Source: Malania oleifera (taxonomy: Eukaryota; Streptophyta; Magnoliopsida; Santalales; Ximeniaceae). From it: 64,000 nucleotides of DNA. The translations under genes and the position numbers were made by a program. Below are positions 542 to 64,000 of the stretch, in pieces. The notes below the pieces were generated by a model. It searched no databases. It was not told where the DNA came from and saw nothing but the letters and a program-made list of their open reading frames with translations. How positions within the stretch are numbered: the stretch's first letter is position 1; each line of letters starts with the position of its first letter. The DNA is taken from the NCBI RefSeq assembly GCF_029873635.1, contig NC_080421.1:41459120-41523119 (forward strand). The letters run 5' to 3'.

Positions 542-2659
542 TGTTAGCTTTACCGTGATCCCAAGAGGGGGGGGTGAATTGGTATTTTTAAAATCTATCC
601 CCTAGGTGTTCCTCCTAATAGCAGTATGTTCACAACACTATGGTCAATCTAGTGCAAATAATATAAAAGTTAAATAACGCAGTTTAATCAATTATACAAG
701 CACCAGAAAGCAGTAAAGAAAAGGGTGACACACAGATATGTTATCGAGGTTCGGCCAACTGCCTACGTCCTCGCCTTGGCTAACCAGCATAAGGATTATC
801 ACAATAACTTGCTCACTTAAACAGGTGGAGTGACACCTATGCAAACCAGGTCAAATTATCATAGGACTGACCTCAACCTTAACCAATCCTTACCGGGCTT
901 GATTACCGCCCCCTCAGGCCACGCCTGGAATCTCTCAGATATACAATCAAAAGGTACAATGTATGGGTGCTTTCACGTAAAGAAAATTTGTACCACAAAT
1001 GCGCACAATATCACATACACCATAGATGATTTAATAATATAAGCTCAGTGTGGTCTAAGTAGTTCAACTCTAAAATAGATTTTCTATCAATGTAGTGCGC
1101 ACGTGAGAGTGTCAATAATAATCTGTATATTTCAAAATATTCAATCAAACGTGTTCACACAGAATATCAAACAAGCCTTAAGAATGTCAATCAGTAGAAT
1201 ATCTCAATCACACAAATATGTATATGCTTGGACTTGCAAAATATATATGATCTTTGTTTTCAGCAAAAATATATGAGTGAATAAATCTTGCAACAAAGAT
1301 GTATCACCTCAAACACAAATATCTCCTCAAATGGTTTTCAAAATAAAGAACAATAGATATTTGTAAATGATTTTGAAAATATTTCGCAACCAAAAGCAAA
1401 TATGAGCTTCTCAAGATATTGCAACGAATATGCAATCTCAGAAAACCTAGTAAAGTCTTCTTAGGATGAACTTATTGGCTAAGTCCCCTAAGAATCCTTT
1501 TGGTTTAGTTCTCAATAAAAATAGATCAATCTCACAACCAAAAGAGAGTAAACCTTCCTATCTAAACACTCAAGAACACTTACAAATGATTTAATGAGTT
1601 TTGAATGTAAGCTAGAGTGTATTTGGAAGAGTATGAGCAAATGGGAATCAAAAGAGAGTATTTTTGCTTGAGAGAAATTTTCTTAATCTTTTTGCTAATC
1701 GATGCTTAATTCTCCCAAATGAAAGAGTATATATAGACATACCAAAATATTTGACCGTTGGGGACTTATTAGTAATTATTGGAAAATTTTAATGACATTA
1801 AAATCAATTTAACCCCGTTTAAAAAATATTTAACCGTGGCAAAAATCAAGGCAACCCGAGAGGTCCGGTCGACTAGAAATGTTTCGGTCGACCAGGACTC
1901 ATATGGTTCGGTCAACTAGGGGAATTCTGAACTAAGTGGTCGGTCGACCGAAAGGCCTTTTCCAAAGGCAATTTTTCATTTCTTCGAGGTTCGGTCGACC
2001 AAGCCTTTTTGAACTAGCTGGTTCAGTCAACCAGACGGCTGGGATTTCTCCCGAGGACCCTCTGGTCGGCTAGGTAGTTGGAGAACAAAAGTGCACGGTC
2101 GACTAGATGGTCAAAATGTTAACTAGGGAGGGTTTCGGTCGATCGGGGTCAAATGAACTGTAAGGGCTCGGTCGACCAGACAGTGGTCAACATGTTGACC
2201 CGGACCAGTTTCGGTCGACCAAGAGAAAATGACCCGTGTGAGTTAGTCGACCGAAAGTACAATACATGTTCAATTCTGTCCTTTTTCAAGCATGCAATTA
2301 ACCAAGTCAAATATTCAAACATATGTATGTATGAGTGAGTGTCCTAGGGTCACTTGGGGTCCAATTTCAAGACATCGAAACTCTAAGGTCATTTTGCATT
2401 ATGATTTGGTTTAAGCTTACAAGATAAACCATGCATATGTTGTGTGTGCTTATTACAAACCAAATTTCCTAATTACTATTACAGACCAAATAGACCACTA
2501 AATATATTACAACTGAAATTATGAACTGGTCTTCAAGTTTTAAGCTTTTCACAAGCCATTAATGTGTCTGCTAATATAAACCTGAACATGAGCTAGATAC
2601 TCATTAGATACAAGAGTATTTGTCATTATCAAAACCGAGCGTGACCTATAAGGTCAACA
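542..2659 (-). mobile_element. Solo LTR, Ty1/Copia SIRE/Maximus-type
   Basis: On the minus strand it opens TGTTGACCTTATAGG with GGTTTTGATAATGACAAA (2659 downward) and ends CCAATTCACCCCCCC...GCTAACA at 542. It carries a CGGTCGACC palindrome array (1862-2255), a TATATATA box (1735-1728) and the block AAGGCGAGGACGTAGGC..GCCGAACCTCG (about 785-741). Flanks ATGAT and TTGAT are near matches but not clean. The sequence on both sides belongs to one Gypsy LTR, so this inserted into it. A fossil with no internal part. Confidence 0.75.
1862..2255 (-). repeat. Array of CGGTCGACC palindromes in SIRE-type U3
   Basis: About a dozen words of the form TTCGGTCGACCA/G, many with C-to-T style variants (GGTCAACC, GGTCGACT). 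They lie upstream of the TATATATA box of the same LTR. Confidence 0.85.
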
Positions 2660-3785
2660 TTTGATAGTAGAGCCCTATTATTGATGATCTCATGGTAAGA
2701 GCATGGTACTGTAGCTATATGTATGTAGGGGTGCAACCACATGTCTCAGATAGAGTGTGGATGGGAAAGACGATTGGTGACCTGGCTAAAGTATTCCCTA
2801 AAGGTTTTCTGGGGCTTCATCCGATGTAGTAATTCTAATTGACTCAACCTTCGGACGGTTTTCGGGTATAGATTGAGTAGGCACCATCGTACTACTTTAT
2901 GTTTGACTTAGCATTAGTCGGCCGGCTACTTGCTAGGTCCAACCCTCGGGCCGCACAACCCGTCTTGGGAGGAAGCATATCGCATGTGTATGTGATGACA
3001 TGACGACGCTAGTTCTACAGACCAGGCTATATCTTGTAGGCATATATGGGCACATTTACTATAAAAAGGGCTATATTAGCCAACATTATGTTATTATGAA
3101 AGCATGTATTTTCATATATACATTTTAGTACAGTTTTAAATGTCAGTTAAATGATTAATGTTAGCAGTATTATGTATACACAAAATCTCATGTAAACCAC
3201 ACACTGATGATAATGTAATCCGTTTTACTGAGAGGTGTCTCACCCTAGCATACAAATGTATTTTCAGGTCCTCCGAGGGATCGAGCTTAGCATTCTTCTG
3301 GGCCGAGTTAGATAGCAGATAGTCCTGGTTAGAGCTGGTGAGATATTAGTTAGTGTCTATCTTTTGGGGATTGTAACAGCAGATTATGTTTTAATTATGT
3401 ATGGAAGTATATGGAAAATAATTAGAAACTCTGGTATGTATTAGATGATATTTGTATTTCCGCTAAGTATGTTTATAAAGATTAGTATGGAACACCTATT
3501 TTCCCTTGTTTGAGCGGGTTGTATATGTAAGGTATCAGAAGGTATGTATGTTTAGTAGCACTCCGGCACCACCTAGAGGGCCGGGGCATTACAGAAACTG
3601 TAAAATTCTGGTATTTTGTATAAGTTAGGTATATTATGATTTTTGCTGCTTGGTTGACATGTATGTATAAACAGGTGAATCCCCAGTACCTATGGGTTCG
3701 GGTTGATTTTGACTATGCTTTATGGTATCAAAGTATTATTAATATTATGTGGAAAAAAAATATAGCAGAAAATTTTGGGGTGTGA
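2660..3785 (+). repeat. Gypsy LTR remnants, right part
   Basis: Phrases such as GAGCATGGTACTGTAGC, GTGCAACCACATGTCTCAG, CGCACAACCC and TACTGAGAGGTGTCTCACCC match equivalent places in the Tekay-type LTRs at 55.3-55.8 and 62.2-62.7 kb. One LTR ends at GGGGCATTACA (3585-3595); the next 190 bases end GGGGTGTGACA and may be the end of a second LTR. Solo or truncated; fossil. Confidence 0.6.
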
Positions 3786-7194: not shown

Positions 7195-8783
7195 ATGGAG
7201 GGAACTGTGTTCGCCGTGACCTTGGAAGAACTTAGACAAGTCAAGTCTGAAGGGGGAGAAATACTTACAAAGCCTTTCTTGGATGTTTTCAGACACATGT
7301 TACCCGTGGTAGGTATGGTTTTTCAACTTATAGGCTAAGCTTGGATCCAATATCTTTCTTCTACTCGATCCCCCCCACCTCTCTGAAAAGAAAAATGTCC
7401 TTTTTTAGTTTTCACTTTTTTTTTCTTCTAATTTTTCTCCTCTTCCCTTTCCGAATGTGCATTTATTCTCTCTCGTGACATTTATTCTTCATGGATTATG
7501 ATATATTTAGTCATTTGTGTTTCTTACTGCAATATTAAGAAAATAATTTTTTTCCCAGTTTTTGCTAAGTGTGGAAGTTGGAAGGTGGTGCTTATAATAT
7601 AAAAATAGTTTCAAAATAAATCTTCATTATTTATCTTCGATCTCCAACTTGGAGACTAGTAACCAGGACAATACTAGCCCTCTTGCCCTTATGCCTATAG
7701 GACCTTCTGTATGACCTGAAATGCTCGTAGCATATTAAGAGTCTAAGACAATAATTTTATTCGTCATGTTATAAATGGGTTGTATAAATCCAACATTGTC
7801 TTTACTCATTAAATCCTCATATTAATTTGACGTGCTTTACCTAAAGATTTTTTTTTTTTGGATCTACCAAAAATGCACAGCAGTAACAGATTATAACTAG
7901 AAAAGCAAATTTAACAGCAGTCTTCTTCACATCATCACAGCAAATAGAGATAACTCTTAAATATGGATCAACAATAACAAACTCCCTAACCCATTGGCAC
8001 AACAGCATCATCGGCCAATGCCTCTAAAAAGCAAATATTACAAATCAATAGCCTCATTGCTCCAAAAAGATAATCCGTGAAGGTTTTAGATCAAGAGCTT
8101 CTCAATGGCGTCCTTGAGTTGTAGTATTTGGGACTTTTATTGGCTTCCTTCATTGCTTGTCACAGAACAAGCAATGACAGGTCTTGTGACTCCACATCCT
8201 CCGCCAAGAGCTTGCTTAGAAGGGACAAATACGTACGGCACATTCTTATCTTCAGCAAGTAAGGAAAGATGGAGAAGTACTTCAAGAGGTTCAGTGTCAG
8301 CAGCCATCACATTAGCACCCTTTTTGAGCTGCTTGTAATTGGCAGCTTGCTGAACAAGATCCAGGATGGTTATCGTCATCTGGGCATCGGCCAGCGGGTA
8401 CGCTTTTGGACTCACTGCTTCGCCTGTCATTGTAGCTGATATGAGGAAACAGCGGCGGGGAGGCTAGGGTTTTTGGTGAGGGCGCGAGGGTTTAGAAGCA
8501 GCCGTGTGGAGGACGGCTTAGGGGTGACAAAACGGGTTCACGGGCGGGTCCGGCGGGTTGTAAACGCGGCGAGAAGATCTGCGGCGACAGCGTGCGGCGA
8601 CGGCGTGCTGGTGCTGCGGTGCTGGGTTGCCTGGGCTGCCGGAAGAGGAACTGACGAAGATCGAAGGTGAACTCTTGCCTGTTGCCCTGGGGTGCGGGCG
8701 GCATGCAGCAGCAGTGCTGGGCAGAGCCGCAGAGGGCAGTGGGTGACTGGCGTGGGTAAAGAAATTAGGGTTCCTTGGGTTAA

Positions 8784-8832
<49 letters not shown>

Positions 8833-11162
8833 TAAATAAAAGGATTAACCCTTTTATAAATGGGTTGGTTTCTATAAATCTGAATCTTAATTGGACGGGT
8901 CACTCGACCCATTTTGTTCTTTACCTAGATATGACCCACTTAAGTGCTTAATAACCAATACTAATGAATATCTTTCTTTTAACAAATGCTACTGGTTTTT
9001 ATAGCTTCCTAAACTAATTTGATATGCTCTCTAATATTTATATTTGTTCATTTGGATGGTTTTTTTTTTTTTTTCATATGAATGTTTCAATCTTATTACA
9101 AACCTCAAATCTTTTAAGCTTTTAGGCATATATAGACCATTCATAACACGTCAGCGTCTTGTTCCAATTATATATTCTCTATCATTTTTCAGTTATTAGA
9201 GTTTTATGTAAAGGATGGACAAGATAACATAGTTTCTTTATTTGTTTGTTTGTTCGATATATGATGCCAGATAAATTTGGACCTTCGATGGTACTCGTAA
9301 AATCTGATGTTTTGGGCAATATATCTGTAAGTTAATCTTTTCTCATATTAAGTAGTTTCTTTTGACTTAAGAGTCTTATCTCTTCTCATGCAAGAAATTT
9401 TTAAAATTTTAAAAGAAGCATGACTTAGTTGGTTTTTAGGTCAAAGCTGATAAATCCAAATTTTGAAGTGAAAAAGCATTGAGTAGTTCTAAAAAATATC
9501 AACCATTCTGGATTCTCTACCTTTAACTCTATAATTTTTCTTACATACCACTAAATTGGTACTAGTGGGAGGGTGGGGGCAATTGGCAAGAGTGGCTTGT
9601 TTCCATTACTTGATTCAAATTGTTATTATATCCTTGTATGCAACAGAGATCAATGGCATATTTTGGAATAGCCTACATGTGAGAGGTGTTTTGTTGATGA
9701 GCCAGCCCAATTCATCAGTATTGATATTGCATTCGAATCAATGTTGTTAACTGGTGTATATGTATTTTTTTTTCCCTCCTTGCAGACATTAGAGTCCAAG
9801 TATAAGTCCAATCCATCAGAATTCAATGACTTGTACAATATGGTAAGGTTAGAGCTTGAAGCTAAAAAACAGAAGTCTTCTTCCAGTTGCACCACTGCTC
9901 TTCTCTGGTTAACCAGGTAAGCAATATTTTCAGCATGTGTAGGTGTAACAATGCGTGATTTCCCTCCTATTTGGAGTAGTAGATTTTGTACTATTTTTGC
10001 GCAAGTCCACTACGAGGACCAATTTACATCTTATAGTTGTGCAAATGTATGAAAAACTAGTGGACCCTTCACACGCTTGAGATGTTTTGTGATACTTATT
10101 TAGGGGCATGGATTTCTTGTTGGAATTGTTCCGCAACTTACTGGAGCATGCTGATTGGACCATGTCACAAGCTTGCACCTCTGCCTACAAGAAAACACTG
10201 AAAAAATGGCACGGTTTTCTAGAAAGATCAAGCTTCAGTGTAAACACTTTTTCCTACAACTCTATTTTTGTGTCTTCTAAAGTTTACAACTATGTGAAGT
10301 GCATCCTATACATAACCACATGTTTGGGAGCTCAGAATTTAGACCTTAGATTTGGATTTGTGTTGATTCCGATAAAATGCAATACAAAATTATATTTCTC
10401 CAAGTCACACAGATTGATATCCCGTCTTGAAATTTCTTCTCCCAAACCCAAAAGTGCCATTTTTTACATGAGTAATTTGACATTCCTAGACATGAAGAAG
10501 CATGAACTCTTGAGCAGTATTCTTGGTCCTCAAGCATGCACTATTCTTGGGCAACACCCCCTCCCCCTTTCCTTTTTTTCTCCTTTTTTTGGTGCAAATC
10601 ATATGATCTACCCTGATTAGAAAACTTTAAGCAACAACATAAATCATGATGACTAGATGATTTTAGACAAATCTAATATTAAGAACTTCCGGGTGCTTAT
10701 CTAAGAAGGGTACTATCTATTGGATTTGGGCATAACATGGCAAAAGTTGACAGAGATAATTTTGTATAAACTTAAGTGATTTGAGTCCCAAACGTAGTGA
10801 TGTGCTTCATGATCTTCTCATTTATTTTACCTTAATTAAAAGCCTTGCATTTATCATAATTGAAATCACAGGTTGCCCTGAAGGTTATTCCAGACAGGAA
10901 GAAGTTCATGGACATAATTGGGGGCACTGGTGATATTAATTCTGATATAGAACAACTGTGCACAAACTTTGCTCCATTGCTTGAAGAGAACCACAGATTT
11001 TTGGTAATCTCTCATGTATTTGTCATGCTTTCATGAAGGAAATTTAAGTATTCATAGCTCTGCAGGGGCTATCCATTCTATAACATCTGAATTCAACTTC
11101 TCCCTCTTTTTTGGTTTGACTTGCCGCAGGCTAGTATCGGGATGGACGATTGGAAATTTTAA
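7195..11162 (+). CDS. GLTP1: Glycolipid transfer protein, GLTP1-type (six coding exons)
   Basis: Soluble cytosolic protein expected to carry glycosphingolipids between membranes. Exons are 7195-7312, 9271-9326, 9786-9916, 10104-10239, 10872-11003 and 11130-11162; every intron is GT-AG and all phases join, giving 201 residues, about the length I recall for plant GLTP1 (near 202). Seen in the translation: the start MEGTVF, KPFLDV (26-31), VKSDVLGNI (49-57), [14 protein letters not shown] (89-102), WTMSQAC (120-126), KKWHGF (135-140) and the C-terminus MDDWKF. By family knowledge D52, N56, W99 and H138 match the headgroup-binding Asp, Asn, Trp and His of human GLTP; the basic residue expected next in that pocket is T59 here. 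The ATG fits because the family starts with this motif and an acceptor lies 12 bases upstream. Coding intron 1 (about 2 kb) holds an antisense SNU13 retrocopy. ACD11-like proteins are the nearest alternative, but the motifs favour GLTP1. Confidence 0.93.
7848..8518 (-). pseudogene. SNU13: Processed pseudogene of SNU13/NHP2L1 (15.5K U4 snRNP protein)
   Basis: Intronless antisense copy of the small L7Ae-family RNA-binding protein of U4/U6.U5 snRNPs and box C/D snoRNPs. The frame starts at 8430 and reads [20 protein letters not shown], then continues through [33 protein letters not shown] and [19 protein letters not shown]. Against the roughly 128-residue family it lacks about 14 residues after KKGAN (the TLNRGISEF segment, which carries conserved RNA-contact residues). 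It has a stop where Leu is expected after SNEGSQ; beyond that stop the sequence still reads [16 protein letters not shown] to the natural stop at 8086-8088. Upstream is a typical AAACCCTAGCC-type 5'UTR. On the minus strand an A-run at 7858-7848 looks like the poly(A) tail. No introns plus a tail point to LINE-mediated retroposition into GLTP coding intron 1. Confidence 0.9.
8519..8925. other. GC-rich segment with (TA)n, origin unresolved
   Basis: From about 8450 to 8760 the DNA is far richer in G+C than the surrounding intron. A (TA)22 run occupies 8787-8830. The left edge reads TAGGGGTGACAAAACGGG and the right edge ends ACCCATTTTGTTCTTTACCTA-like, an imperfect inverted match of the kind seen at hAT-type MITE ends. 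No clean 8-bp target duplication is visible. Alternatively it is a 5' extension of the adjoining SNU13 retrocopy. Confidence 0.3.
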
Positions 11163-11592
11163 TGCTGGGCTGTTGATAATTAGTTTTACCTTAAAATTTT
11201 ACTTAATTGTTGTACAATGTGATATCTTTGTTGTGTTCAATATTACCAATTATTACTTCTTAGACATGGCAATGTATTGGGAATAGCTATTTGAGATTTT
11301 CTAATATAAAAGAACATCTCCCCTGCGTACGATGAATTGGTTTGTGGTTGGATTCCTAAACTATGTCACCAGTCGATGTTCTTGTCATAGGGTCCATGAA
11401 GGGAAGGCAGCATATTTACATTTGAATCTCTATTCTCTTGGAAATATCTTCTTTTGCCTTATTGGAATGTTCTCCTTTCATTGTTACTCGTGTAAATGGA
11501 GAACAAATTTATCAAAATTTTGAATTAAAATAGAAATCTTTAAAAATATATTCAAGAAAATTTGGAATTTTTTGCATCAAGTAATTGATGGC

Positions 11593-11631
<39 letters not shown>

Positions 11632-11953
11632 TTCATTTATTATATTTCTAAGAAAAGAAATTACAATGATCACAAGAATAATACAACATGAAAGAATACA
11701 AGAATAATACTTATTCTTCACTTCAGGTGAAGTTTATCAAGACAATGAAGCCATTCCAAGAATCTTGTCTTGAAGCCATTCCAAGAATCTTTATAGTTAT
11801 ACGACATCATCTTCCATGCATTGTTTGAGACCACAATTAGTATAATTGAATTCCTTCAATCTTGTGAAGCATTGAAATTCTTCAAGCAGTGTATCATGTT
11901 TAAAACTAATTCTTTTGAGGAAAAGAGTTTGAATTGACAAACATTAAATGTTA
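11163..11953. other. GLTP 3'UTR and downstream DNA
   Basis: The first 150 bases or so after the stop are T-rich and probably 3'UTR; no canonical AATAAA is obvious. A (TA)n run lies at 11597-11627. Nothing else coding is supported. Confidence 0.4.
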
Positions 11954-12276
11954 AGGCAAAAGACATTGATCTCCCTTAAGGTTTGGCCAAAAAATAAGAG
12001 GGATCTCTCTAGAGTTTTAAAAATCTCAAGGACCTCCCTTGAGGTTTCAAGAGTTCCAGAGACCTCCTTAGGGGTTTGTCAAAAAGACACAAATTTTCCT
12101 TAATATTTTGAAAAAAAACAAGTATTTTGAGGGGAGATTTGTATCTTTTGGCAAATCTTAGGGGAGGTCTATGACGTTTCTAAAACCTCAAGGGAGGTCA
12201 ATGGAATTTTTGAAACATTGGGAGAGGTTCCTGCATTTTTGCCAAAACTCAAGGGAGGTCAATGTCTTTTGCACTA
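11954..12276. mobile_element. Mutator-like foldback MITE
   Basis: The ends are an inverted repeat: the left end reads GGCAAAAGACATTGATCTCC and the right end, reversed, reads GTGCAAAAGACATTGACC followed by TCCCTTGAG. The interior also folds back, with several copies of a CCTCCCTTGAGGTTT-type phrase on the left and its complement on the right. It is flanked by AAATGTTA at 11946-11953 and at 12277-12284, an 8-bp match within the 8-9 bp target duplication expected of Mutator-like elements. No coding capacity. Confidence 0.75.
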
Positions 12277-12284
12277 AAATGTTA

Positions 12285-12811: not shown

Positions 12812-12816
12812 GGTTT

Positions 12817-14692
12817 TGTAATGCCCCGATCCTTTATACGAACCCAGAGTGCTACTATACATACGAAATACCTGTATCTGATAAGCATATATAAACAACC
12901 CGCCCTAAACAGGGACAAACGAGTATAACTCAGACATATTTGAAATCATGCAAAACAGAAAACATAAACATGCCCATTCGGGATTCTATTAGACATATAC
13001 TAGAGTTCTATCTGTATTTTTCAATACAATAGATTCATGTTTAAAACATAAACATATTACATCCTCCTACATTCTACCAGGCTAACAACCCTGTACTAAT
13101 ACAAATCCACTAACAAGACTATACGCGCCAAAGTCCTTCTAGAAGAACTAGGATCGACGTCCTGTAGGACCTGAAACAGAGGTTGTAAGATTGGGGTGAG
13201 ACACTTCTTAGTAAGATGGAAGATATTACAACAGCATGTGACTACATGAGTTTATTTCAGTTAAAAACAGTTGCACAGTATTACATACACAGTACAGTAC
13301 TATCAGAGATATACAAACATAATATGACATCATTACAAGCGAGAGTCCCCGAGGTAAGGGTAGGGTACATGCTCATACACTGTACGATTCCCTCAACACG
13401 ATACTCAATCTTGCGACTTTGCCCATTTCAGTTTGTAAATCATGTATATGAAAATTTAGGACAATGACGAGCTTTGGTACTTTCAGTAATATGCCTAATT
13501 ATCCCGTGGCACAAGTTGTGCACCGATAACTCTGACAAAGCTCTACTCCTGCAAGCACTGTCGAGCGTCACAGATATAGTTCGGCTGCCCCACCTGGTCT
13601 ATTATTTCACCAATGGCCCCATACACTCCTGTAAGCCGACTATCTCAATACCCACACTGACTTAGATGTGTGGTTGCACTGTACCTCAGTAAGCAATGGA
13701 ATCATGTCTCTAGCTATATAAAGCCTCAGATAACCTAGTGTATCTTTCAACTCCTTTGGAGTGTCTTTCAACTCCTTTAGTAACAAGGTGTGGTCCCAAT
13801 CAATCATATATATAATTTACAATAAAACATAACAACCTGTGCAGTTTTAGTATTTTCACAACTGTAATCATACAATCTTTCATGCATTTTTCTTTTTTGT
13901 CAGTCAGTGGTGTTAGCTGGCACAAACGCTCTCGGTTCAACCCTTTTTACATTTTTAAGCTCGGTGATTAACCGGCACCTGTTTTCCACATTTTCAGATA
14001 GTAGAATGGAATTTCAGTTTTTACAGTTCATTCAGAAATATAACAGTTCAATATGTTCGAGTTCATATCACATGTCACGTTCGTTTCGTCAAAAATCCAC
14101 TATAAACAATGTATAACTTGAAAAATAACATTTGGACCGTAAATATGGGTATCAAGCAGTTCCTACTTTAGTTTTAAAACAGTTAACGTAGTTTTGAAAA
14201 ATTTGGAGTTCATATGCCAAAACCTTTATTTTTTCCGAAAACCGTAAAATCAAACAATTGTAAGAAACCACATTTATACTTGGTAAAATTTTGTAGATAA
14301 GCAGTCAAAATGTGCAGTAAGACATAAGCAATCTTTCTAGCGGTTCAGTTTTCTAAAAATACTGATGTAACAAATCCCTTTACCTTAATCCCGAAAATAG
14401 AAATACGAACGGATCGGTCCAAAACAACGACCCGGGGTCCCCGAAACCTAAAAAATGAAGAATATTACTTCATTATAATCACGACTACTACATATATACC
14501 GAATCAGAAACGGAATCAAATCCTTACCTCAATTTTAGGGAAAAACCCAAAAATCCTCAAATCGAAAATCTAATCCACTATAACTGTAGAGATTCTCCTC
14601 CTAATCCACGTAGTGATGTCGCATTGTTGATTCCAGTAATAGACGACATAGAATCCTAGAGAGAGAGAGGGGTTGTTCAAGTTCTAGAGAGA

Positions 14693-14729
<37 letters not shown>

Positions 14730-15053
14730 GGATAACTTAGCGTGGAAGTAATGAATATTCCATTTATAAGTAGGTTGACCCGGCCAGTCTTGTCAACGAG
14801 TCGGAGTTCTCGTCGACGAGCCAAAGAAGGTCACTCGTGGCCGAGTAAGTGACCTCGTTGATGAGCCTAAGATTTCAGAATCTCTGAAAATCCCTCGACA
14901 TCTCCTCGTCGACAGGTCTTTGCATCTCTCCACAGAGCAATAGAAGAGACTTCGTCAACGAGAAATGGAGCCTCGTCGACGAGCTCTGCTATTTTATACT
15001 TTTTAATTTCCCTTCTCTTTTGTATATTTATTTTCCAGATTCGGGTCCTTACA
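12817..15053 (-). repeat. 3' LTR of Tekay element 1
   Basis: Runs from TGTAAGGACC (minus strand, at 15053) to GGGGCATTACA at 12817, 2.24 kb, with the usual TG...CA ends. On the minus strand it opens with several CTCGTCGACGAG-type palindromes (about 14983-14786). A TATAAAT box follows at 14768-14762, then a CT-rich tract (GA repeat at 14684-14726 on plus). The purine tract adjoins it at about 15054-15066. Confidence 0.9.
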
Positions 15054-18690: not shown

Positions 18691-18753
18691 CCTAGCTTGG
18701 GCAGTACCTCCCTGTTGTCCATCTCGTGGCGCCTGCGCACCACCTCTAAAAGG

Positions 18754-27924: not shown

Positions 27925-28327
27925 TGATATACCCTAAATATACCAAGGTCAAATAGTCAATCCGCAGCATTAAGGCATAGCAGCAATCAAGGCCATCATC
28001 GCTCAAGGACAGTTACTTTGAAGGGGTCAACTCCATATAGGCCAAAGCGATCCACTCCCGCGCCATAACTCATTAATCAATGGCCAGACATCCTCGGGTC
28101 AACTTCTGCCACTATAAATAGGGACTCGGGCGAGAGGCCAAGGTATCTCATTCTAACCCCATTTCACTGTTGCATACAACCTCTCTAAAGCATTCCCTTA
28201 CTTAGGCATCGGAGAGATCCCTCGGAGCACACCTCGAGTCCTCCAAGCCACCTTTGTTTTCACCCTTTTCAGGTGATCGGAGATCAGAAGGCTCATCGGA
28301 GGTCCTTGACATCTTTATTCCGCAACA
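27925..28327 (+). repeat. 5' LTR of Tat element
   Basis: Begins TGATATACCC and ends TTCCGCAACA. A TATA box TATAAATA at 28113-28120 fits a short U3. Most differences from the 3' LTR are C/T or G/A transitions, the pattern expected after long cytosine methylation. Confidence 0.92.
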
Positions 28328-36370: not shown

Positions 36371-36389
36371 GGCGAAAATAACCCGGGAA

Positions 36390-37910: not shown

Positions 37911-38309
37911 TGATATTCCCTAAATATACCAAGGTCTAATAGTCAAATCGCAGCATTAAGGTATAGCAGCAATCAAGGCCATCATCGCTCAAGGACAGCT
38001 GCTCTGAAGGAGTCAACTCCATATAGGCCAGAGCGATCCACACCCGCGTCATAACTCGCCAATAAATGGCCAGACATATTTGAGTCAACTTCTGTCACTA
38101 TAAATAAGGACTCGGGCAAAAGGCCACGATATCTCATTCTAATCCCATTTCACTGTTGCATACAACCTCTCTAGAGCATTCCCTTAGGCATTGGAGAGAT
38201 CCCCCGAAGTACACCTCAAGTCCTCCAAGCCACCTTTGTTTTCATCCTTTTCAGGTGATTGGAGATCGGAAGGCTCATCGGAGGTCCTTGACATCTTTAT
38301 TCCGCAACA
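37911..38309 (+). repeat. 3' LTR of Tat element
   Basis: Begins TGATATTCCC, preceded by the purine tract AAAAGGGAGGG (about 37896-37907). It matches the 5' LTR over its whole length, with TATAAATA at 38099-38106. Confidence 0.92.
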
Positions 38310-45500: not shown

Positions 45501-48500
45501 CCTACACATTGATTTGAGTAAATGCATTCCAATTCTTGATGCATGAGTAAAATCCTGAAAGTTTGAAGCTATTGCTCATGGCCTCGTAGCAATTACTGTA
45601 GCACGACACTGTTCACACCATTGTTATCCCCTACAATAAAATTATAGTTGGGGTATCTTTCCCAACATCAACTCTCCAACTTGAAAAAGAAATTATCTTT
45701 GAATGAGTTCTTAAGAATATTAATCACCTATATCCGTCTAGCGGAAGTGTAATGCTTGCGAATCGCTTGAAATTTGTGGCCAATCATGGAATCCAGTTCA
45801 CCTTGGGGTTGCATTGATCAAAGCTTGCTATTAGGCAAGAATTCTTTGAAGACTGATCATGATTGTATTGTTATGAGGCCAAATGTTTTTAGAAATGTAT
45901 AAAGGAGCTAAAATTGGAGATGGAGAAGTAGATAGCAAAGATTTCATTGCTGATTCTGAAAATTTAGAGGAGACTGTTGCAAGTAATGAAGGACCACTAC
46001 CTGGAGATATTCTGTTAAGATTTAAAATCATGGGCTTCCATTTGAAAAGGTCATTAGCATCAAGAAAATGAACTTGCCCTCAGGCAAGTCCATATGTGTA
46101 TCCTGGGTTTCAAACAGGTCAATTTGAGCAAGAATGAACTAGAACTTGGAGTTCAAAGTTGGGAAAACACATTACTAGGATGTGTAATGGGAATAAAAGC
46201 TAAGCACAAAGCTATGCTAGGTTTTGTTCGGGATTGATGGAAACATGTTGCTTGGGCGGATTTTTAGATGGTGAAATGTAGTTTATTTCTGTTAGATTTT
46301 GTAGAAAAACATTTTTTCTTAATCACTTCTACGCCCAGGGCCATAGTCATTTGATTAGAAGCCTCATATCCTGCAACCATGGGCTTCGATTAGAATTTTG
46401 AGAAATAGGTATTTCAAAATCCCTAATATGGATTTGATTACCAGAGCTACCTTTCCATTTCCCGGAAGGTTAAGTAAATTAGTGCGTTGGATTGGGGTTC
46501 CTCAGTTTACTTATCGTCACAGCTACAAACAGCATTCTCCATTTTGCATAGCTGATATTGAGAAGAGTGATGACTTGCAAGAAAATATTCCTATTCTTCT
46601 GATAGAAAAATGTCAATAGATCAGAGAATTCAAAACTAACAGAAGCCACAGTAGTACTCTAGATGTGAATATGCCGGGCTGCCTGGGCATACCAAAAACA
46701 ATTTGTCCTAAGGTGATTAAAATTTGGATCCCTCAATCTCATCGACGATCACCAACTGTTCATACCATAGATATGCATTTTAATTAGGGACAGTGCAAAG
46801 GCACCACATATCAAATAAGCAGCTGAAGGAGGCCATTTTGCAGGCCAATCCCTCAGCCACTGATGAGTACAAGGGAAGATAAAGGGTCAGGTATGGCATA
46901 GCACATGGCCTGGCCAATGACATTGATCTAGCAGAAGGTGGAGGAGCTTGAGAAAATCAGCCTGGAATTGCCATGACCTTTGAATTGGCCAAAAGCTTCA
47001 GAATAGTATAAGAACTAGATAGGGCCTTTATTAATAATATTGAAGGTGGAAAAACAAGGGATTTGAGCATATAGCCTAAATAAGATAAGATGGTGAAAGA
47101 TGAAGAACCAGTCAAAAAAATAAAGTTTGACCACTATATGAAACAGAAGTGCAAGAATAATAGAGATCCCACTTCCCAAAGGACGTTAAGGGACAAATCC
47201 TATAAGAAGCAATCTGTGCTTGAATGAATGTTTTGCTATATGGAATGCAAAAGGAGTACATGACCCTCTTAAACAATGAAAAATCCTGTTGGCCTAACAA
47301 GGTCTTTCAATCAATTTTGGTGATAACAAACAAAGGACAATTTAACTTGGAAAGGTTGAGTTTTTGTGTTTCAGGAAATATGGATCAAGTGAAGATTAAG
47401 TATGGATCAAGTGAAGATCAAGTATTGATCAAGTGTGGGTCATCAAGGAAGATAAACTAACCAATGATCCAAAGAGAAACTAAGGCATTTGCAGATAAAG
47501 CTAGCTCAAGCAAATATCTAAAGAATTTCAAGAGCAAAGAATGAGAATGATCTCAAGCATGGCATATAAAGTCTTAGGAAACATATTGTAAGTATTTCAA
47601 AGCTAAATATCGTTTGAAATATGTTTTGAAGTTTTTCCAAGAGATTATGAGGACCTAAAAACATATTTAGGATTATTGAAACAAGTCTTGTAAAAATCAG
47701 AATAAGAGAGCAAATCATTTTTAATGAAAAATATTTTTAAAACAGCTTTTTGCTTGTTCAGATGACTGAAGCAGTAACTTCAGATGGCTGAACTTCATGT
47801 TCAAATGTCTGAAGAATTACTTCAGATGTCTGAAGAATAAGTGCAGACGTCTGAAGATTTTTTGGGACAAAACTGAAACAGGCAGTAGCTGTTCAGACGT
47901 CTGAACTCGACACTTCAGACATCTGAACCCGACACCTCAGACGTCTGAACCCACTCTTCAGTTATCTGACCCTGTGTCCAGTTCATTTTTTAAGGGGTTT
48001 CAGGAACTTCAGATGACTGAACTCGACTCTTCAGTCATCTGAACACTGTTCAACAGGAAAATTTTTTAAAATCTAATATTTTAAATAATAGCCGTTTTGA
48101 GCTCCAAATTTTCTAACAACTTGGGAAACTCTCTAAGGAAACTTTTGCAACAAGGAAACTTGTTTGAAAGCCTATAAATACATGGTTTTTGTAAATCAAA
48201 ATTACACCAAGCATTGAAAATCTCTCATAAGCTCTCTTGCTCTCAAAGTCTCATCTTGATCATCTCTTGCAAACTGAAAGTGCTGTGATTCTGAGATTCT
48301 AGCTCATCAATTCCTGAAGTTAGATTATTGATTTCTCATCTGGAGAAAAGGAATTTGGTGAAATCCTTGTTAAGCTTCAAAGTGTATTTCTTTCTTGATA
48401 TTTATCTTTTGAAGTACATAATTTCAATTTGTACTAACCTGCTCTTTGTGTGAGCATCTCTTGTACATCAGCTTCTTGATATTTCTCTTGTAGATTTTTG

Positions 48501-49778
48501 GACGATTCCAGGCTATCGGATCGTTGACCAAACGAGGGTATATTGTTTGGATAAGGCAGGCTCCTCTAGCCTTAGCAAAGGAGTGATTGTAAATAGGTGT
48601 TGTTCCGCCCGGTAAAGGAACTGCTATAGTAGAACCCTTTGGTATTTTGTCAAGGGCGAGGACGTAGGCTGTGTTGAAGCCGAATCTCGTAAAAACCTTA
48701 TGTCTTTCTTTCTTCTTTACTTCCTATTTTCTGTACAAACTGTTATTGTGTGATTTAAAGTGCAGGTTGCAGGTTCTAATGTTAGAAATAAAGAAAGACT
48801 CTTGAATTTTAGAAAGTACGTTTTGATTGACCGTTTGCGAAAACCCAAAAGGGAGTACGTTGGTTAATCTGCGGAAATCTTGATCAAGAGAAGTGTATAC
48901 AAAGAGGTTATCTAAAGAAGGTTGTGAACATCTACAGGGAAATTGATAAAAGTACTAAGATTCTTGCTTGAGTGGTTGAATTGTTTTAGTTTAATTGATT
49001 GGCTTGTGAATTTAAATTTTAGTATTTTTAAGTGTGATTATCAATTATTAATTGTGTTTTTCTTGGTGTCATAAGCAAAGCTCAAAAATTATTAAATCAA
49101 AAAGAATCCAATTCACCCCCCCTCTTAGAAGTTATTCCTAATTTCAAACCCCTTAGCCTATGTTTGGAGATGCCTAAAATTGTATTGAAATTTGTCTAAA
49201 TCCATCCAAACCCAAATTCAACATCCGAAATCCATGCTGCCAATCGCAGTGTACTCTCTTGGGTGTTCTAAAGTCTAGTGTAAGGGAAGAAATTTCAGTT
49301 CTAAAAGAAAAAAAAAAAAAAAATCTATGACTGTTAACGGGCATGCTTTAACAAATGGAAATTACATTCAAAAAGAAAACACCATAAGCGTTAGAATTGG
49401 ATCAATTGGTGAAGATAGATCAGTTTAAATCATCATGATTCCCCTGGTTGTCCTAGTCCTCTGCTGTCTTATATTTGTTTCTCTTTAATAAAATTTCAAC
49501 TTTAAAAAAAAATAAAAATATAAGCGAAGGAAAAGCTGTTAGACTAAAATTAAGCTTTAAGGAAAACAAGTAAAAGAAATTAACATAACATTCCCTCTCA
49601 TACCAGAAGAAGATGACGATGAAGCTGAGCAAGCTGTAGGAGACCCTTTTTGGCGGAATTTGCCTCTAGAGGCAAGTGGAACTCGATGTCTAGGGTTTGG
49701 AAGAAACCCCAACTGCACAAACAAGCTCGAAGAGCCCCAGCACAGAGAGCAACATCCACTGCAACCATCAAAATGCAA
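40798..49778 (-). CDS. HEME1: Uroporphyrinogen decarboxylase, plastid (five coding exons)
   Basis: Converts uroporphyrinogen III to coproporphyrinogen III in plastid tetrapyrrole (heme and chlorophyll) synthesis. Minus-strand exons: 49778-49604, 44875-44493, 44362-44078, 43499-43264 and 40948-40798; all introns are GT-AG and phases join to 410 codons including stop. Numbering from the first codon used here: Ser-rich transit-like N-terminus (1-58), [14 protein letters not shown] (73-86; R80 and R84 match substrate-binding Arg), FSDILTPL (D130, the catalytic Asp), [14 protein letters not shown] (Y206), [42 protein letters not shown] and [13 protein letters not shown] (H376). Length is close to plant HEME1 as I recall it (about 418). 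Odd: exon 1 has no in-frame ATG. The frame is open from a TGA eight codons upstream, and the listed start is a TTG, so the true 5' end is unresolved. Intron 1 is 4.7 kb and intron 4 is 2.3 kb, both filled with repeats. Confidence 0.93.
41401..41545 (+). pseudogene. trnT-UGU: Nuclear plastid DNA fragment with trnT-UGU
   Basis: The 73 bases from 41401 (GCCCGCTTAGCTCAGAGG..., anticodon loop ATTTGTAA) match plastid trnT(UGU) in my memory, with several substitutions in the anticodon and T arms. The downstream bases (CTATTTGTTCTCTTTAC, then TTGATAATGTCTCTTTG) look like the plastid trnT-trnL spacer. It is therefore a plastid DNA insert in HEME1 intron 4, not a working tRNA gene. The insert ends are not sharp. 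Confidence 0.8.
42004..42105 (-). mobile_element. Truncated Au-type SINE
   Basis: Repeats the 3' half of the neighbouring SINE (GACCACAAGGCTCCTTGC and TTGCAAAGGTAGAG against CCATAAGGCTCCCCACTTTG). It lacks the A and B boxes. It is older or more diverged than the full copy 28 bases away. Confidence 0.7.
42133..42317 (-). mobile_element. Au-type SINE with target duplication
   Basis: On the minus strand: a start GAGTGCATGCCTTGGATTAA, a GGTAAGGTTGC A-box region, a GGTCACAAGTTTGGGTCC B-box region, then ACACTGTGACGACTCTCGCC and GGGATGCC followed by a T-rich tail. This is the layout of the Au SINE family, including its 3' T-run. A perfect 15-bp duplication, ATATCATTAAAAATA, flanks it at 42118-42132 and 42318-42332. 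It lies in HEME1 intron 4, same strand as the gene. Confidence 0.88.
42487..43010. repeat. (TG)n microsatellite and decayed TG/CA-rich tract
   Basis: A clean TG run at 42487-42532 is followed by nearly 500 bases of alternating purine-pyrimidine sequence with ATGTGTGTATG, GCATGCACATGCATG and similar steps, consistent with an old expanded microsatellite. Lies in HEME1 intron 4. Confidence 0.8.
44876..45879. other. HEME1 intron 1, proximal to exon 2
   Basis: No gene or clear repeat family recognised. It includes an A-run near 45236-45253. Confidence 0.3.
45880..46650 (+). pseudogene. Possible LINE ORF1 (DUF4283-like) relic
   Basis: Decayed coding-like sequence. One frame reads [19 protein letters not shown] then KAMLGFVRD and WKHVAWADF; a later frame reads [11 protein letters not shown] and [18 protein letters not shown]. 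The spacing and words resemble the DUF4283 domain of plant LINE ORF1 proteins. The sequence is interrupted by stops at the positions before WKHV and MVKCS and shifts frame further on, so it is a relic. Lies in HEME1 intron 1, opposite strand. Confidence 0.4.
46651..47286. other. HEME1 intron 1, between LINE relic and solo LTR
   Basis: May be the decayed continuation of the LINE-like relic. Nothing that I can support. Confidence 0.25.
47287..49146 (+). mobile_element. Solo LTR, Ty1/Copia SIRE/Maximus-type, in HEME1 intron 1
   Basis: Opens TGTTGGCCTAAC followed by TTTTGGTGATAACAAAC and closes shortly after CCAATTCACCCCCCC, both typical of these Copia LTRs. Inside: an array of TTCAGACGTCTGAA-type palindromes (47759-48053), a TATA box TATAAATA (48173-48180), and the block AAGGGCGAGGACGTAGGC..GCCGAATCTCG (about 48650-48692) seen in SIRE-type U5. 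Flanks AATCC (47282-47286) and AACCC (49147-49151) differ by one base. No internal region or second LTR is present, so it is a solo LTR and a fossil. Confidence 0.78.
47759..48053 (+). repeat. Array of TTCAGACGTCTGAA palindromes in SIRE-type U3
   Basis: About eleven copies of CTTCAGAYGTCTGAA-like words separated by short variable spacers such as CTCGACA and CCCGACAC. The array ends about 120 bases upstream of the TATA box. Confidence 0.85.
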
Positions 49779-49810
49779 TCTCAGAATTTTAGAGTTTCAG
49801 TGAGATAAAT

Positions 49811-49863
<53 letters not shown>

Positions 49864-54217: not shown

Positions 54218-54280
54218 CACAAGGTGTGAAATATTGGACCCATGTTAGTTGGTATCAAAGCTTGGTAAATTGCTACATGA

Positions 54281-56156
54281 TGTAATAACCCAAGGAATTT
54301 AATCAGGGCCTTGTCGACGAACACAGGGAATTCATCGACGAGGGTTCATGAGGATCTCGTCGATGTGGACACTCTTCTTCGATGATAAGATACCGACAGG
54401 TTGTTTTTCGAAGTTCTGAATTTCATCGACGAGGAGAAGGCATTCTTCGACGAACCTCCTTCTTGACCTCGTCGACGAAGGCTAGAGTATAAATAGTAAA
54501 AATCTCATATTTTACGCAGAATTAACAGCAAAATATTTTCCCTCTCTCTCCTTTACAGTTTCTCCCTCTTCTCGCTTCGATTCTGGTCCGTTTCTCGCCG
54601 GATCTACAATCTGAGGCCACCACGATGCTCTTGGGAAAGTTCTCTCCAAGTTTGCTGGAGCGGATCATTGGTGGGACTGAGTTGAATTTCATCCCAGATT
54701 TAGGGTAGGTCTTTTATTCAAAATTAGGCTTTCCAGCAGTTGTAGGAAATGCAGTAGTCGAAGAAATAATAATATTTTATTTTGGGATATATTGTTTCAG
54801 GGTGTTGAGTGAGGAACCCTATGGGTGTAGGACCAGTCACAGTAAAGGATTTTAGCAGGAATCAGGTAAGGGAAATATGCTATGCTAGGAAAATTTAGTA
54901 TGATTTCAGTATAAAGTATATGTTTTTACTAGATTATTATTCAGCGCAGGAATTTATACAGTTTATAAATTATGCTTAATACATTTTAGTTATTGTGTGG
55001 CATGGGAATATGGATATAGTACAGAATCATGTTTCATAGTATTTTCAGGATCATGTTTTACAGAATATACAGACAGGGAAATGCTTTTACAGTTTTTTGG
55101 AATACCATGATTATACAGTTTTACAGTACCATGACATACAGATTTAAAGTTTATTTCAGAAATATTGTTGATATTGATACAGTTTATTACAGCGTCATGG
55201 TTAATACAGTTAATACAAAATCATGGTAAAACAGATAGATTATATATAGAAATGTATTATATAGTATCAAACCTTGATGGACCAGATTCAATCAGTAGAG
55301 CACGATACCGTAGCTATATTCAGTTCAAAGTGCAACCACATTACTCAGATAGTATGTGGCATTCAGAAGTCGATTGTGCCTATGTTGTGGACAAGCTCCC
55401 ATTCAGATAAGGGTTGAGGGGGCTGATCTGAGTGTTGGAGTTCAGTTAACTTACCCTGGTCGCCCATCCAGGATAAGTCCTGCCTATGAACTGCACAACC
55501 CTGTCATAAGGGGTTAAATCATGACTTTCAGTTATCCATCTAGGAAATTTTCTCAGTTATTATATATATGTATGATCATATTTACAGAAAATAAACATAC
55601 CTATAGATATTAGAAGTATTATGAATAAAATATCTAGAAAAATCAATTTATGCTAAGTAACATAGGTATGATTTATATTGTAACAAATATACAGGTTTTC
55701 TCAGTTTTCGTTATTTATGGTATTTTCTAAGTAAGATTTTACAAGCATGTAACTCACTTGCCACACACTAGTAATAGCATATTTCGTCTTACTGAGCATT
55801 GTCTCATCCTAGTGGTTTAATATTTTTCAAGTGATCCAACTAGGTGAGTAGATCAAGCTCGTAGGTAAAGGGGCTACAATGCTGCCCTGTCAATAGAGTG
55901 AGTATTTTGGGAGGTTATTTTATATAGCCCTAATTTCAGTGGAGGGTATTTTGGGAATAGTTGTATATGTATATTTTGGGAGTATTCTGGCACTTTGGTA
56001 TTGTATATATATATAGATGGTTATGGTTATATGATTTCAGCTTCTCGCTGCTTAGGTTGATCGTTTTATATTAATTAGAAGGTATCGAAGCAGTGGAATT
56101 TCATAGTATTTATTATTATTGTAAAAAAAAAAAAAAAAATTTAGCAGGTCGTTACA
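54281..56156 (+). repeat. 5' LTR of Tekay element 2
   Basis: TGTAATAACC...GTTACA, 1876 bp. A GTCGACGA-type palindrome array (54310-54482) runs straight into TATAAATA (54488-54495), followed by a CT-rich leader. Confidence 0.93.
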
Positions 56157-57440: not shown

Positions 57441-57479
57441 GGCTAGTAGAGGAATGTAGCCCCGGCGACGATTTACGCT

Positions 57480-60881: not shown

Positions 60882-61118
60882 ACAATTTCATTTTGTTTAG
60901 TTCAATGTAATTGTAATGTAGAGTATAGGATAGGTAGTATTTTGGTTTTGAGGGAATTTTCTTTTATAATTGTAATCTCCCAGAACTACTTATGTAACCA
61001 TGGTATTCCTCCACCATAAATGAGGGCAAGTAATAAAATAAGTAGACTGTTTATCTTAAGGGATGATAGAACATAAGGATAACAATTTTGAGGACGAAAT
61101 TTTATAAGGAGGGGAGAA

Positions 61119-62443
61119 TGTAATAACCTAAGGAATTTAATCAAGGCCTTGTCAACAAACACAGGGAATTCGTCGACAAGGGTACATGAGGATCTCATCG
61201 ACGAGGACACACTTCGTCAAAGAGAAGATACCGAGAGGTTGTTTTTTCAAGTTCTAAATTTCATCAACGAGGAGACGACATTTGTGGACAAACCTCCTTC
61301 TTGACCTCGTCGAAGAGGTGACGTGGCTCATTGACGAAGGCCAAAGTATAAATAGTACAAATCTTGAATTTTACGCAGAATTAACAGCAAAATATTTTCC
61401 CTCTCTCCTCTACAGTTTCTCCTTCTTCTCTCTTTGATTCTAGTCCCGTTTCTCGCCAGATCGATGATCTGAGGCCACCACGAATCTTTTGGGAAAGTTC
61501 TCTCCAAGTTTGTCGGAGCAGATCGTTAGTGGGACTAAGTTGAATTTTATCCTAGATTCAGGGTAAGGTCTTTTATTCAAAATTAGGTTTTCCAGCAGTT
61601 ATAGGAAATGTAATAGTCGAAGAAATAATGATTTTTTATTCTGGGATATATTGTTTTTAGGGTGTTAAGTGGGGAACCCTGCAGGTGTAAGAGTAGTCAC
61701 AGTAGAGGATTTTAGTAGGAATCAGGTAAGGGAAATATGCTATACTAGGAAAACTTAGTATGATTTCAGTATAAAGTATATGTTTTTATTAGATTATTAT
61801 TTAGAGTAGGAATTTATGCAGTTTATAAATTATGCTTAATACATTTTAGTTACTGTGTGGCATGAGAATATGGATATAGTATAGAATCATGTTTGACAGT
61901 ATGTATACAGAAACATGTTTTACAGTATTTTCAGGATCATGTTTTACAAAATATACAGACAGGGAAATGCTTTTATAGTTTTTCAGAATACCATGATTAT
62001 ACAGTTTTACAGTACCATAACATACAGATTTACAGTTTATTTCAGAAATACAGTTGATATAGATACAATTTATTACTGCATCATGGTTAATACAGTTAAT
62101 ACAAAATCTTGGTAAAATAGATAGATTTTATATAGAAATGTATTATATAGTATCGAATCCTGATGGACCAGATTTAGTCAGCAGAGCATGGTATCATAGC
62201 TATATTCAATTCAGAGTGCAACCACATTACTCAGATAGTATGTGGTATTCAGAAGTCAATCGTGCCTATGTTGTGGACAAGCTCCCCTTCAGATAACGGT
62301 TGAGAGAGCCGATCTGACTGTCGGAGTTCAGTTGACTTACCCTGGTCGGTCAGTCAGGATAGGTCGCACCTACGGGTCGCACAACCCTGTCATGAGGGGT
62401 TAAATAATGACTTTTAGTTATCCATCTAGGGAATATTCTTAGT

Positions 62444-62486
<43 letters not shown>

Positions 62487-63054
62487 CATATTTACAAAAA
62501 ATAGACATACCTATAAATATTAGAAGTATTATGAATAATATATCTAGAAAAATCAATTTATGTTAAGTAACATAGGTATGATTTATATTGTAACAAATAT
62601 ACAGGTTTTCTCAGTTTTCGTTATTTATGGTATTTTCTAAGTCAGATTTTACAAGCATGTAACTCACTTGCCATACACTAGCAATAACATATTTCGTCTT
62701 ATTGAGCATTGTCTCATCCTAGTGGTTTAATATTTTTCAGGTGATCCAGCTAGGCGAGTAGATCAGGCTCGCAGGTAGAGGGGCTACAGTGTTGCCCTGT
62801 CAGTAGGGTGAGTATTTTGGGAGGTTATTTTGTATAGCCCTAGTTTCAGTGGAGGGTATTTTGGGAATAGTTGTATATGTATATTTTGGGAGTATTCTGG
62901 CACTCTAGTATTGTATATATATGATTATGGTTATATGATTTCAGCTTCTCGCTGCTTAGGTTGATGGTTTTATATTAATTAGAAGGTATCGGAGCAGTGG
63001 AATTTCATAGTATTTATTATTATTGTAAAAAAAAAAAATTTGCAGGTCATTACA
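61119..63054 (+). repeat. 3' LTR of Tekay element 2
   Basis: TGTAATAACC...CATTACA, 1936 bp. TATAAATA at 61347-61354 and a (TA)n run at 62448-62483 that is much shorter in the 5' LTR. Confidence 0.93.
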
Positions 63055-63059
63055 CATGA

Positions 63060-63618
63060 ATTCAGTTACCTTCGTTTGTGGAATTGTGTGAAGCATTAGT
63101 AAGAGATCATGCCAACTAATACCAAGAGAATTGAAGCACTAAAGGCACAGGTTGATACATCCAATAATATGACCATAAAGATGGTCAAACTTGCTAAATG
63201 AGTTGATGCTTTGAAGGGATCACAAAAACATCAATAGAGTCCTATGGTGGAGATTCTAAAGGACCTCCACGTGATAGTAGAAACTTTGCAGACTTAAATG
63301 GCAGAGCTGACTACCAAAATGAACCTAATGGTTCTTGCTACAGGAAACTCCAATGCTATAGAGTCTAGAGGAACCAAAGTTCCAAAACCCAAAATGCTTT
63401 AGGGATGCTTGTCATGCTAAGGAGTTAGATTAATTCTTATTTTATTTGATATAAAATCAATGCTTTCATATAATAAGAAACAACTGAGAACGCGTGGAAG
63501 TATCCATGACTACAATGTACTTGGTTGGTGATGTTAAGCCATGGTAGCATACCAAATATGATGAAATTGAGAATGGAAGGTGTGTAGTTGATTGTTGGAT
63601 AGACTTGAAGAGAGATCT
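63060..63618 (+). pseudogene. gag relic of the outer Gypsy element
   Basis: Follows the Tekay element 2 insertion. Readable pieces are RIEALKAQVDTSNNM and YLVGDVKPWWHTKYDEIENG, typical of Gypsy gag. Together with the LTR and primer site before 54261 this is one element split by Tekay 2. Broken. Confidence 0.65.
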
Positions 63619-64000
63619 TGTAATGACCCGAAGAATAATGGTATTTAAATAATAAAGAGGGAGGGAAATGGAAACAAAAAAAGAAGGAGACAGCAAGTTT
63701 CGTCGACGATGTTGCACTTTGGATGTAATAAACTAGAAGATTTACATAGGGCCTCGTCAAATAACACAAGGAGTTCATCGACGAGCACATAAGGAGACCT
63801 CATCAATGAAACCATGTCTCATCGACGAGAAGATACCAAGAGGGGTTTTGGGTAGTCTGAAATTTGACGTCGAGGAAGTAAGGTTCATCGACAAAATCAC
63901 TTAAGAACTCATCGATGAGATGACGTGTCTCGTCGACAAATCCGAGGCTATTAATAATGAAAACTCAGGTTAATTTGCAAAAGATGGCGTAAATCTTCCT
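63619..64000 (+). repeat. Third Tekay-type LTR, cut by the window end
   Basis: Begins TGTAATGACCCGAAG inside the outer gag. It has the same early array of TCGTCGACGA-type palindromes (about 63700-63940) as the other Tekay LTRs but a diverged sequence otherwise. GATCT at 63614-63618 would be its target site. Confidence 0.7.

Follow-up and report, generated by a model that had tools for sequence, protein, structure and literature searches.

The closest described counterparts of the sequences considered here are the "RM boxes" of Sireviruses, palindromic units found upstream of the TATA box in the long terminal repeats (LTRs) of these Copia retrotransposons (Bousios 2010, PMC2829016). RM boxes occur in many copies in the LTR's upstream half, are rich in CpG and differ in word from element to element, with a core of CGG-CCG that only Tnd-1 lacks. 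A CpG island ends some 45 bp beyond a unit, and the TATA box follows this island at a mean distance of 37 bp. The boxes are called Sirevirus-specific and are absent from 30 other Copia elements, and the data set, as described in the parts available, holds no Gypsy element (PMC2829016). Arrays of short palindromes are reported here from LTRs of both the Copia and the Gypsy superfamilies in a stretch of 64,000 nucleotides of Malania oleifera ("the window", C5:41459120-41523119), and the whole assembly (1.494 Gb, 510 contigs) was searched for their relatives. An earlier note on the window knew of no named function for such arrays; their Copia half had already been published as RM boxes (PMC2829016).

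The palindrome arrays are real and non-random. The two Copia LTRs of the window are labeled SIRE-1 and SIRE-2 and its Gypsy LTRs Tekay-like, clade names that we presume, superfamily having been tested by Pfam in some elements. At two mismatches or fewer, CTCGTCGACGAG matches the window 26 times, where shuffles average 0.32 matches; CGGTCGACC has 17 at one mismatch or fewer (mean 1.96) and TTCAGACGTCTGAA has 11 at three or fewer (mean 2.79), and in each case none of 100 shuffles had as many. Most matches fall where the earlier note had seen them, with a few strays elsewhere in the window. Raw palindrome counts are swamped by AT-rich words and were therefore replaced by a composition-weighted test, in which the palindromic 10-mer most enriched given the LTR's own base composition is compared with 40 dinucleotide shuffles. 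In all six complete LTRs of the window this 10-mer was the core of the word noted earlier or a close relative (TCGTCGACGA or TTGTCGACAA in the Gypsy LTRs, CGGTCGACCG in SIRE-1, CAGACGTCTG in SIRE-2), and at one mismatch or fewer no shuffle was as extreme (0/40). With two mismatches allowed, five of the six remain at 0/40, the exception being the LTR at 20078-22281 (15/40). Arrays in at least seven LTRs, enriched over shuffled controls, had been proposed; the six complete LTRs bear this out, and the seventh is a U3 (unique 3′) region cut by the window end. A naive palindrome scan is dominated by dense self-complementary runs at 8500-9200, 11400-12000 and 62200-62700, probably AT-rich simple repeats.

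A second sample, a tract of 200 kb on a different chromosome (C1:40.0-40.2 Mb) whose choice took no account of the words, brings the number of LTR intervals tested to 34, eight in the window and 26 in the tract. Arrays occur in 15 of these, six of them window intervals and nine from the tract. The SIRE-1 word is carried by T92744/T98653, and CAGTCGACTG, which is related to the SIRE-2 word, by T65920/T71539, which pass at two mismatches only (at one, 35/40 and 1/40). The Tekay word is found in T119325/T123486 and in T153065/T156101/T162584. No array was found in 17 of the 34 intervals, including the T74545/T83406 LTRs that flank a Copia-type integrase, so that the array is common but not general. 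Two AT-rich candidates, TACATATGTA in T14670 and TCTATATAGA in T86243, reached 0/40 at two mismatches or fewer and were left uncounted because their partner LTRs fail (3/40 and 7/40); T14670/T21111 adjoins Gypsy pol, but its paired stretch is unlike U3.

Pfam matches support both superfamilies in some of the elements. The array-bearing Copia elements of the tract hold a copia-type gag (T65920/T71539) and RVT_2 (T92744/T98653), and pieces of the array-bearing Gypsy elements match RVT_1, Gypsy-type RNase H and SH3_Tf2-1. Chromo matches are present in three of three Gypsy pieces, but none of them reaches the gathering score (18.2, 14.5 and 19.7 against 25.1). For the T119325 element a zinc knuckle alone was found, and it is grouped with the Tekay-like elements by its U3. 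The two superfamilies of the earlier note thus stand, and its clade names are kept as presumed labels.

The distance between the last palindromic unit and the TATA box is held within families. Because several LTRs contain more than one TATAWAW (the LTR at 12822-15048 has seven), the TATA box was chosen by recurrent position; word-like strays far from the array were excluded when the last unit was named. SIRE-1 (about 542-2663, minus strand, 3′ end at 542, with a C-tract signal near that end) carries its CGGTCGACCG array at 1866-2253 on the minus strand, with nine sites at two mismatches or fewer (0/40 shuffles), and a TATA box at 1729-1735 (minus), 136 bp from the centre of the last unit. SIRE-2 (about 47300-49140, plus strand, C-tract near 49108) carries an array of the word TTCAG(ACGT)CTGAA at 47757-48043 (plus) and a TATA box at 48173-48179 (plus), 137 bp from the centre of its last unit. 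Self-BLAST of the window found no partner LTR there for either. The distance of 136-137 bp, shared by the two despite their different words, is repeated in T65920, T71539 (a three-mismatch site at 308, 14 bp beyond the last unit, being excluded) and T92744; T98653 has no TATAWAW at that position. The interval from last unit to TATA box can be aligned within each SIRE family. Between SIRE-1 and SIRE-2 its lengths agree within 1 bp and its sequences are unalignable (nine cross-family pairs from six LTRs, z 0.2-1.6, 26-34% ungapped identity), values that are also compatible with remote homology. AACGG/CCGTT cores lie between array and TATA box in SIRE LTRs, for example CCCAACGGTCA at 1752-1762 (minus) in the 542-2663 LTR; we take them to resemble the M-phase-specific activator motif.

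Genome-wide searches return the same distances. The SIRE-1 word CGGTCGACC is followed by a TATA box at 111-141 bp in 1,126 places, against 4 for the reversed pattern. Among the first 100 matches listed, 85 fall into peaks at 112-114 (7), 124-126 (31) and 134-136 bp (47), and the steps between these (about 113/125/135) are near one helical turn. For 20 sequence clusters of SIRE-1, an equally strong period of 10-11.3 bp arose in 30 of 5000 uniform draws. The SIRE-2 word CAGACGTCTG, searched at 116-146 bp, gives 364 places against 3 reversed, with 88 of the first 100 matches listed at 135-138 bp. Matches were listed in genome order, those of SIRE-1 to TATA coming from C1 and those of SIRE-2 to TATA from parts of C1-C3.

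In the Tekay-like LTRs the TATA box is much closer. The LTRs at 12822-15048 and 20078-22281 (both minus strand, self-BLAST partners of each other) bound an element with an RNase H match and with SH3_Tf2-1 and Chromo matches under their curated scores. The first carries an array of [CT]TCGTCGACGA[AG], identified by word matches and the shuffle test, at 14789-14983 (minus) and a TATA box at 14762-14768 (minus); the second has its array at 22041-22216 (minus; 0/40 shuffles at one mismatch or fewer, 15/40 at two) and its TATA box at 22014-22020 (minus), the last unit centre lying 27 bp away in both. On the plus strand, the LTRs at 54285-56150 and 61120-63055 (paired by self-BLAST over 54280-56134 and 61118-63038) enclose an RVT_1 match; word matches and the shuffle test place an array at 54310-54479, with a box AAGATACCGACAGG in its central gap, and the shuffle test places another at 61149-61338, followed by TATA boxes at 54488-54494 and 61347-61353, each 15 bp from the last unit centre. 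A third Tekay-like U3 begins at about 63.6 kb on the plus strand and is cut by the window end; word matches give its array at 63699-63940, and no TATAWAW follows up to the window end at 64000. Over nine complete Tekay-like LTRs of window and tract, the distance is 26-27 bp in six and 15 bp in two, and T153065 has no TATAWAW at the expected place after the array. The earlier note had put the array just upstream of the TATA box, which fits the Tekay-like LTRs (15-27 bp) and fails for the SIRE LTRs, where 136-137 bp separate the last unit from it.

Across the genome, TCGTCGACGAN{1,31}TATAAA matches 21,634 places against 27 for the reversed pattern. Among the first 100 of these (the first 4.7 Mb of C1), distances are 15 bp (37), 17-18 (10), 25-28 (18), 36-37 (26, mostly from the next unit up), 30-35 (8) and 11 (1), with none at 19-24 bp. 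At 24 further Tekay-word loci (8 + 16), 19 of which could be oriented and were used in the conservation analysis below, TATAAA lies 14-18 bp after the last unit in 10 and 26 bp after it in two; L029 and L033 give 27 and 18 bp once one stray downstream site is excluded in each. L008 (79), L032 (35) and L043 (114) fall outside the pattern, no TATAAA was in range at L003, L005, L030 and L034, and L002, L006 and L038 gave no row.

Spacing between units is likewise restricted. In LTR coordinates the Tekay-like layout is about 20, 25, 20, then 46-51, then 20, 25, 20 bp, and many of the 24 further loci repeat it as 20-24-20-46/47-20-24-20. The pair TCGTCGACGAN{5,35}TCGTCGACGA occurs at 28,616 places in the genome and its reverse at none. 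Among the first 100 matches listed (the first 2.6 Mb of C1), spacings are 19-21 (52), 24-26 (22) and 43-45 bp (26), with none at 22-23 or 27-42. As the 43-45 class has room for another unit, 74 of 74 neighbours are 19-21 or 24-26 bp apart. These listed matches hold 36 distinct spacers, 23 in the 19-21 class and 13 in the 24-26 class. Spacers had been called unconserved, which is correct for their sequence and not for their length, since length hardly varies in the LTR layouts or genome-wide. A box near GAAATACCGAGAGG, which is no palindrome, often occupies the break between the two Tekay blocks (e.g. 54384-54397). SIRE-2 units are 21-22 bp apart with breaks of 50-51 bp. SIRE-1 spacings are mostly 32-43 bp, the final ones being 24 and 19; its word pair has 33,843 genome matches (some being one site on both strands) against 0 reversed, and 84 non-duplicate rows among the first 100 matches listed (the first 7.7 Mb of C1) fall at 19-24, 30-34 and 37-43 bp. 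A strict helical spacing between units was tested and set aside, as it is only loose in SIRE-1. Several SIRE-1 array spacers hold a second palindrome, GGTCAAnnnTTGACC (e.g. C1:7167418-7167469), whose TTGACC halves are presumably W-box-like; TTGACC would also result from CpG decay of GGTCGACC. The word thus differs by family at the same position, as had been claimed, and place, unit spacing and TATA distance are held across words.

Units are better conserved than spacers between copies. In 23 Tekay-like loci (six of 29 arrays being dropped as LTR partners or partial), unit identity is 0.806 and spacer identity 0.521, and units are higher in 506 of 506 ordered pairs, a comparison that favours units since 19 of the 23 loci were found by word. 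Five Tekay-like U3s not fetched by the word search give 0.669 against 0.489, with units higher in 20 of 20 ordered pairs. Between the two LTRs of single insertions, four pairs give totals of 0.832 for units and 0.855 for spacers; when each pair is compared in both directions (eight comparisons), units score higher twice (both 12822/20078), the same twice and lower four times. Selection on units while the element is active, followed by free decay, would give this pattern.

Selection for the symmetry of the words, as had been proposed, would make a change in either arm recur in its counterpart. In 226 Tekay units from 29 arrays, at two mismatches or fewer, symmetric arm pairs at three variable inner positions number 178, 164 and 188, where independent arms predict 179.3, 167.3 and 189.3. 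The outermost pair shows a mild excess (120 against 103.8), and neither 21 SIRE-2 nor 29 SIRE-1 units show any; the limit of two mismatches per unit works somewhat against detecting double changes. Most Tekay variants show CpG decay on one side of the word, from C to T or from G to A. The arms change independently, the covariation that would demonstrate selection for symmetry itself was looked for and not found, and such selection is not borne out. Across families the words differ, yet all are palindromic, as are the differing words in Table 3 of PMC2829016. Binding by a homodimer fits both the independent decay of the arms and the palindromic words of every family: each half-site would be kept because it is bound, and the halves would be alike because the same protein binds each.

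It is on balance probable that the arrays act as promoter-proximal DNA enhancers, built from sites for dimeric factors that keep register with the promoter. This reading builds on family-specific palindrome arrays, quantised unit spacing, a quantised TATA distance and units that outlast spacers between copies. Each U3 array would hold several sites at which a DNA-binding protein of the host could attach as a homodimer. Their fixed spacing, and their fixed register with the TATA box, would let the bound dimers cooperate among themselves and with the machinery of transcription; the differing words may be meant for different proteins of a single factor family. Protein binding, its dimeric form, an activating effect and action as DNA rather than RNA are what we infer from the sequence, the role as DNA being favoured because the array is in register with the TATA box. 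Dimeric-factor sites were among the suggestions of the earlier note; held place, spacing and TATA distance support a promoter-linked role for such sites. More tentatively, and with doubt prevailing, Copia and Gypsy may have come by convergence to share a single promoter grammar, made up of blocks in which dimer sites are spaced by about two helical turns, a break of 44-51 bp, and a last site in TATA register. The grammar would have been retained as the word changed from family to family, perhaps through escape from homology-based silencing or recruitment of another factor-family member.

Several observations weigh against an enhancer of this kind. Unit spacing in SIRE-1 is only loosely periodic, with a best period of 9.8, and the Tekay spacings (20.5 and 24.5) do not both correspond to whole helical turns. 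Duplication of a 45-bp unit, if indels were few, could also yield a fixed spacer length. Of the 100 SIRE-1 to TATA matches listed, at least five start from a unit other than the last. Listed copies are related by descent, so that 100 rows represent far fewer independent events; the 15 and 26 bp Tekay classes may reflect one or two, and the three SIRE-1 peaks a handful. Some bias toward units remains in the five U3s outside the word search, which were grouped by word and, for those of the window, noticed for it, and in the 12822/20078 pair units are still better conserved than spacers. All 13 arrays folded as RNA fall below their dinucleotide shuffles (z -1.7 to -12; 15 shuffles per array, arrays cut at 230 nt).

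This last result would be expected if the arrays acted in RNA, with paired self-complementary units in the U3 of the transcribed 3′ LTR folding into hairpins and small RNAs derived from them guiding silencing, an idea put forward for maize Sireviruses. An excess of small RNAs over the palindrome clusters of those elements is reported (PMC10760457, citing Bousios 2016). Control windows of the same LTRs (eight shuffles each) are mostly not below shuffles, several reaching z -1.8 to -2.6. Palindromes fold by construction, however, so that folding energy does not discriminate; the arms lack covariation, a fixed TATA distance in near-helical-turn steps is unexpected of an RNA signal, and a signal serving host silencing alone should be lost by the element. 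Action in RNA is thus unlikely as the main explanation, and the two roles could coexist, a palindrome enhancer also feeding silencing as in maize.

A role as CpG-dense methylation platforms, methylated or kept free and acted upon by methyl-DNA readers or CXXC-like factors, appears improbable. The observed/expected CpG ratio is raised in eight Tekay arrays (1.05-2.00) and three SIRE-1 arrays (0.83-1.09) over the rest of the same LTRs (0.40-0.78), as in the SIRE-1 array of the window (1.09 against 0.47), and CpG islands are reported over the boxes in PMC2829016. The two SIRE-2-type arrays, of similar layout, are not enriched (0.44 and 0.40; in the window, 0.44 against 0.41), hence CpG density is not a shared property, and it requires neither palindromes nor fixed spacing. 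Less probable still, and disfavoured, is neutral tandem duplication, by which a 45-bp unit with two palindromes was amplified and its pattern inherited without function. Alternate spacers are alike in some copies (e.g. C1:1636328-1636511), yet neutral units should diverge like spacers, which is untrue between copies and true between the LTRs of single insertions; neither the TATA register nor the similar layout that Copia and Gypsy show with different words would be explained.

Elsewhere in the window, a minisatellite of 41-bp period (36024-37565) lies within a Gypsy-type element whose 400-bp LTRs, 27925-28327 and 37911-38309, are 90% identical. The SIRE-2 LTR adjoins a stretch that resembles exons of a host gene for uroporphyrinogen decarboxylase (43500-47300, minus strand; Pfam URO-D, E 4.7e-39).

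If the enhancer reading is correct, a feature described as Sirevirus-specific would extend to the other main LTR superfamily, and a descriptive motif would become a testable rule of spacing and TATA register. Such a rule would predict which changes should abolish promoter activity, offer a route to the host factor driving many retrotransposon copies, and help to tell an activator from a silencing reading of the palindromes.

Repeated regulatory boxes in the control region of a transposable element are familiar from the Tnt1-type boxes. Control regions of various transposable-element families have been described as arrays of sometimes palindromic repeats (PMC10760457), so that the general idea is in print; what is added here is that layout and TATA register recur across different words. 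Palindromes are treated as insertion targets in PMC6911290. The palindrome-rich cis-region of maize Sireviruses that is a hotspot of small interfering RNAs (via PMC5311732 and PMC10760457) shares its place, kind of repeat and hairpin-forming capacity with the present arrays; it concerns Copia alone and is read as silencing, whereas the arrays here are also in Gypsy. In the open-access literature searched, no report of palindrome arrays in Gypsy/Tekay LTRs was found by title or abstract start, and among the papers listed as containing TCGTCGACGA none was on LTRs by title. The likeness to RM boxes is closest in SIRE-1, whose word is the Vitis word CGGTCGACCG of Table 3 in PMC2829016 and whose array (1866-2253) agrees with them in its CGG-CCG core, at least eight copies (nine sites), position upstream of the TATA box and CpG richness; the C-tract near the 3′ end of its LTR was compared with the same paper. 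The SIRE-2 array differs, its word TTCAGACGTCTGAA lacking the CGG-CCG core and a CpG island, as do the Tekay-like arrays, whose word also lacks that core and is carried by Gypsy rather than by a Sirevirus (Copia). The distance to the TATA box in SIRE-1 is fixed here at 136 bp, and no rule of unit spacing or helical register was met in the available parts of PMC2829016. The Copia half of the present observations is thus known from that paper, down to the word, while what seems new is the presence of arrays in Gypsy and the rule of spacing.

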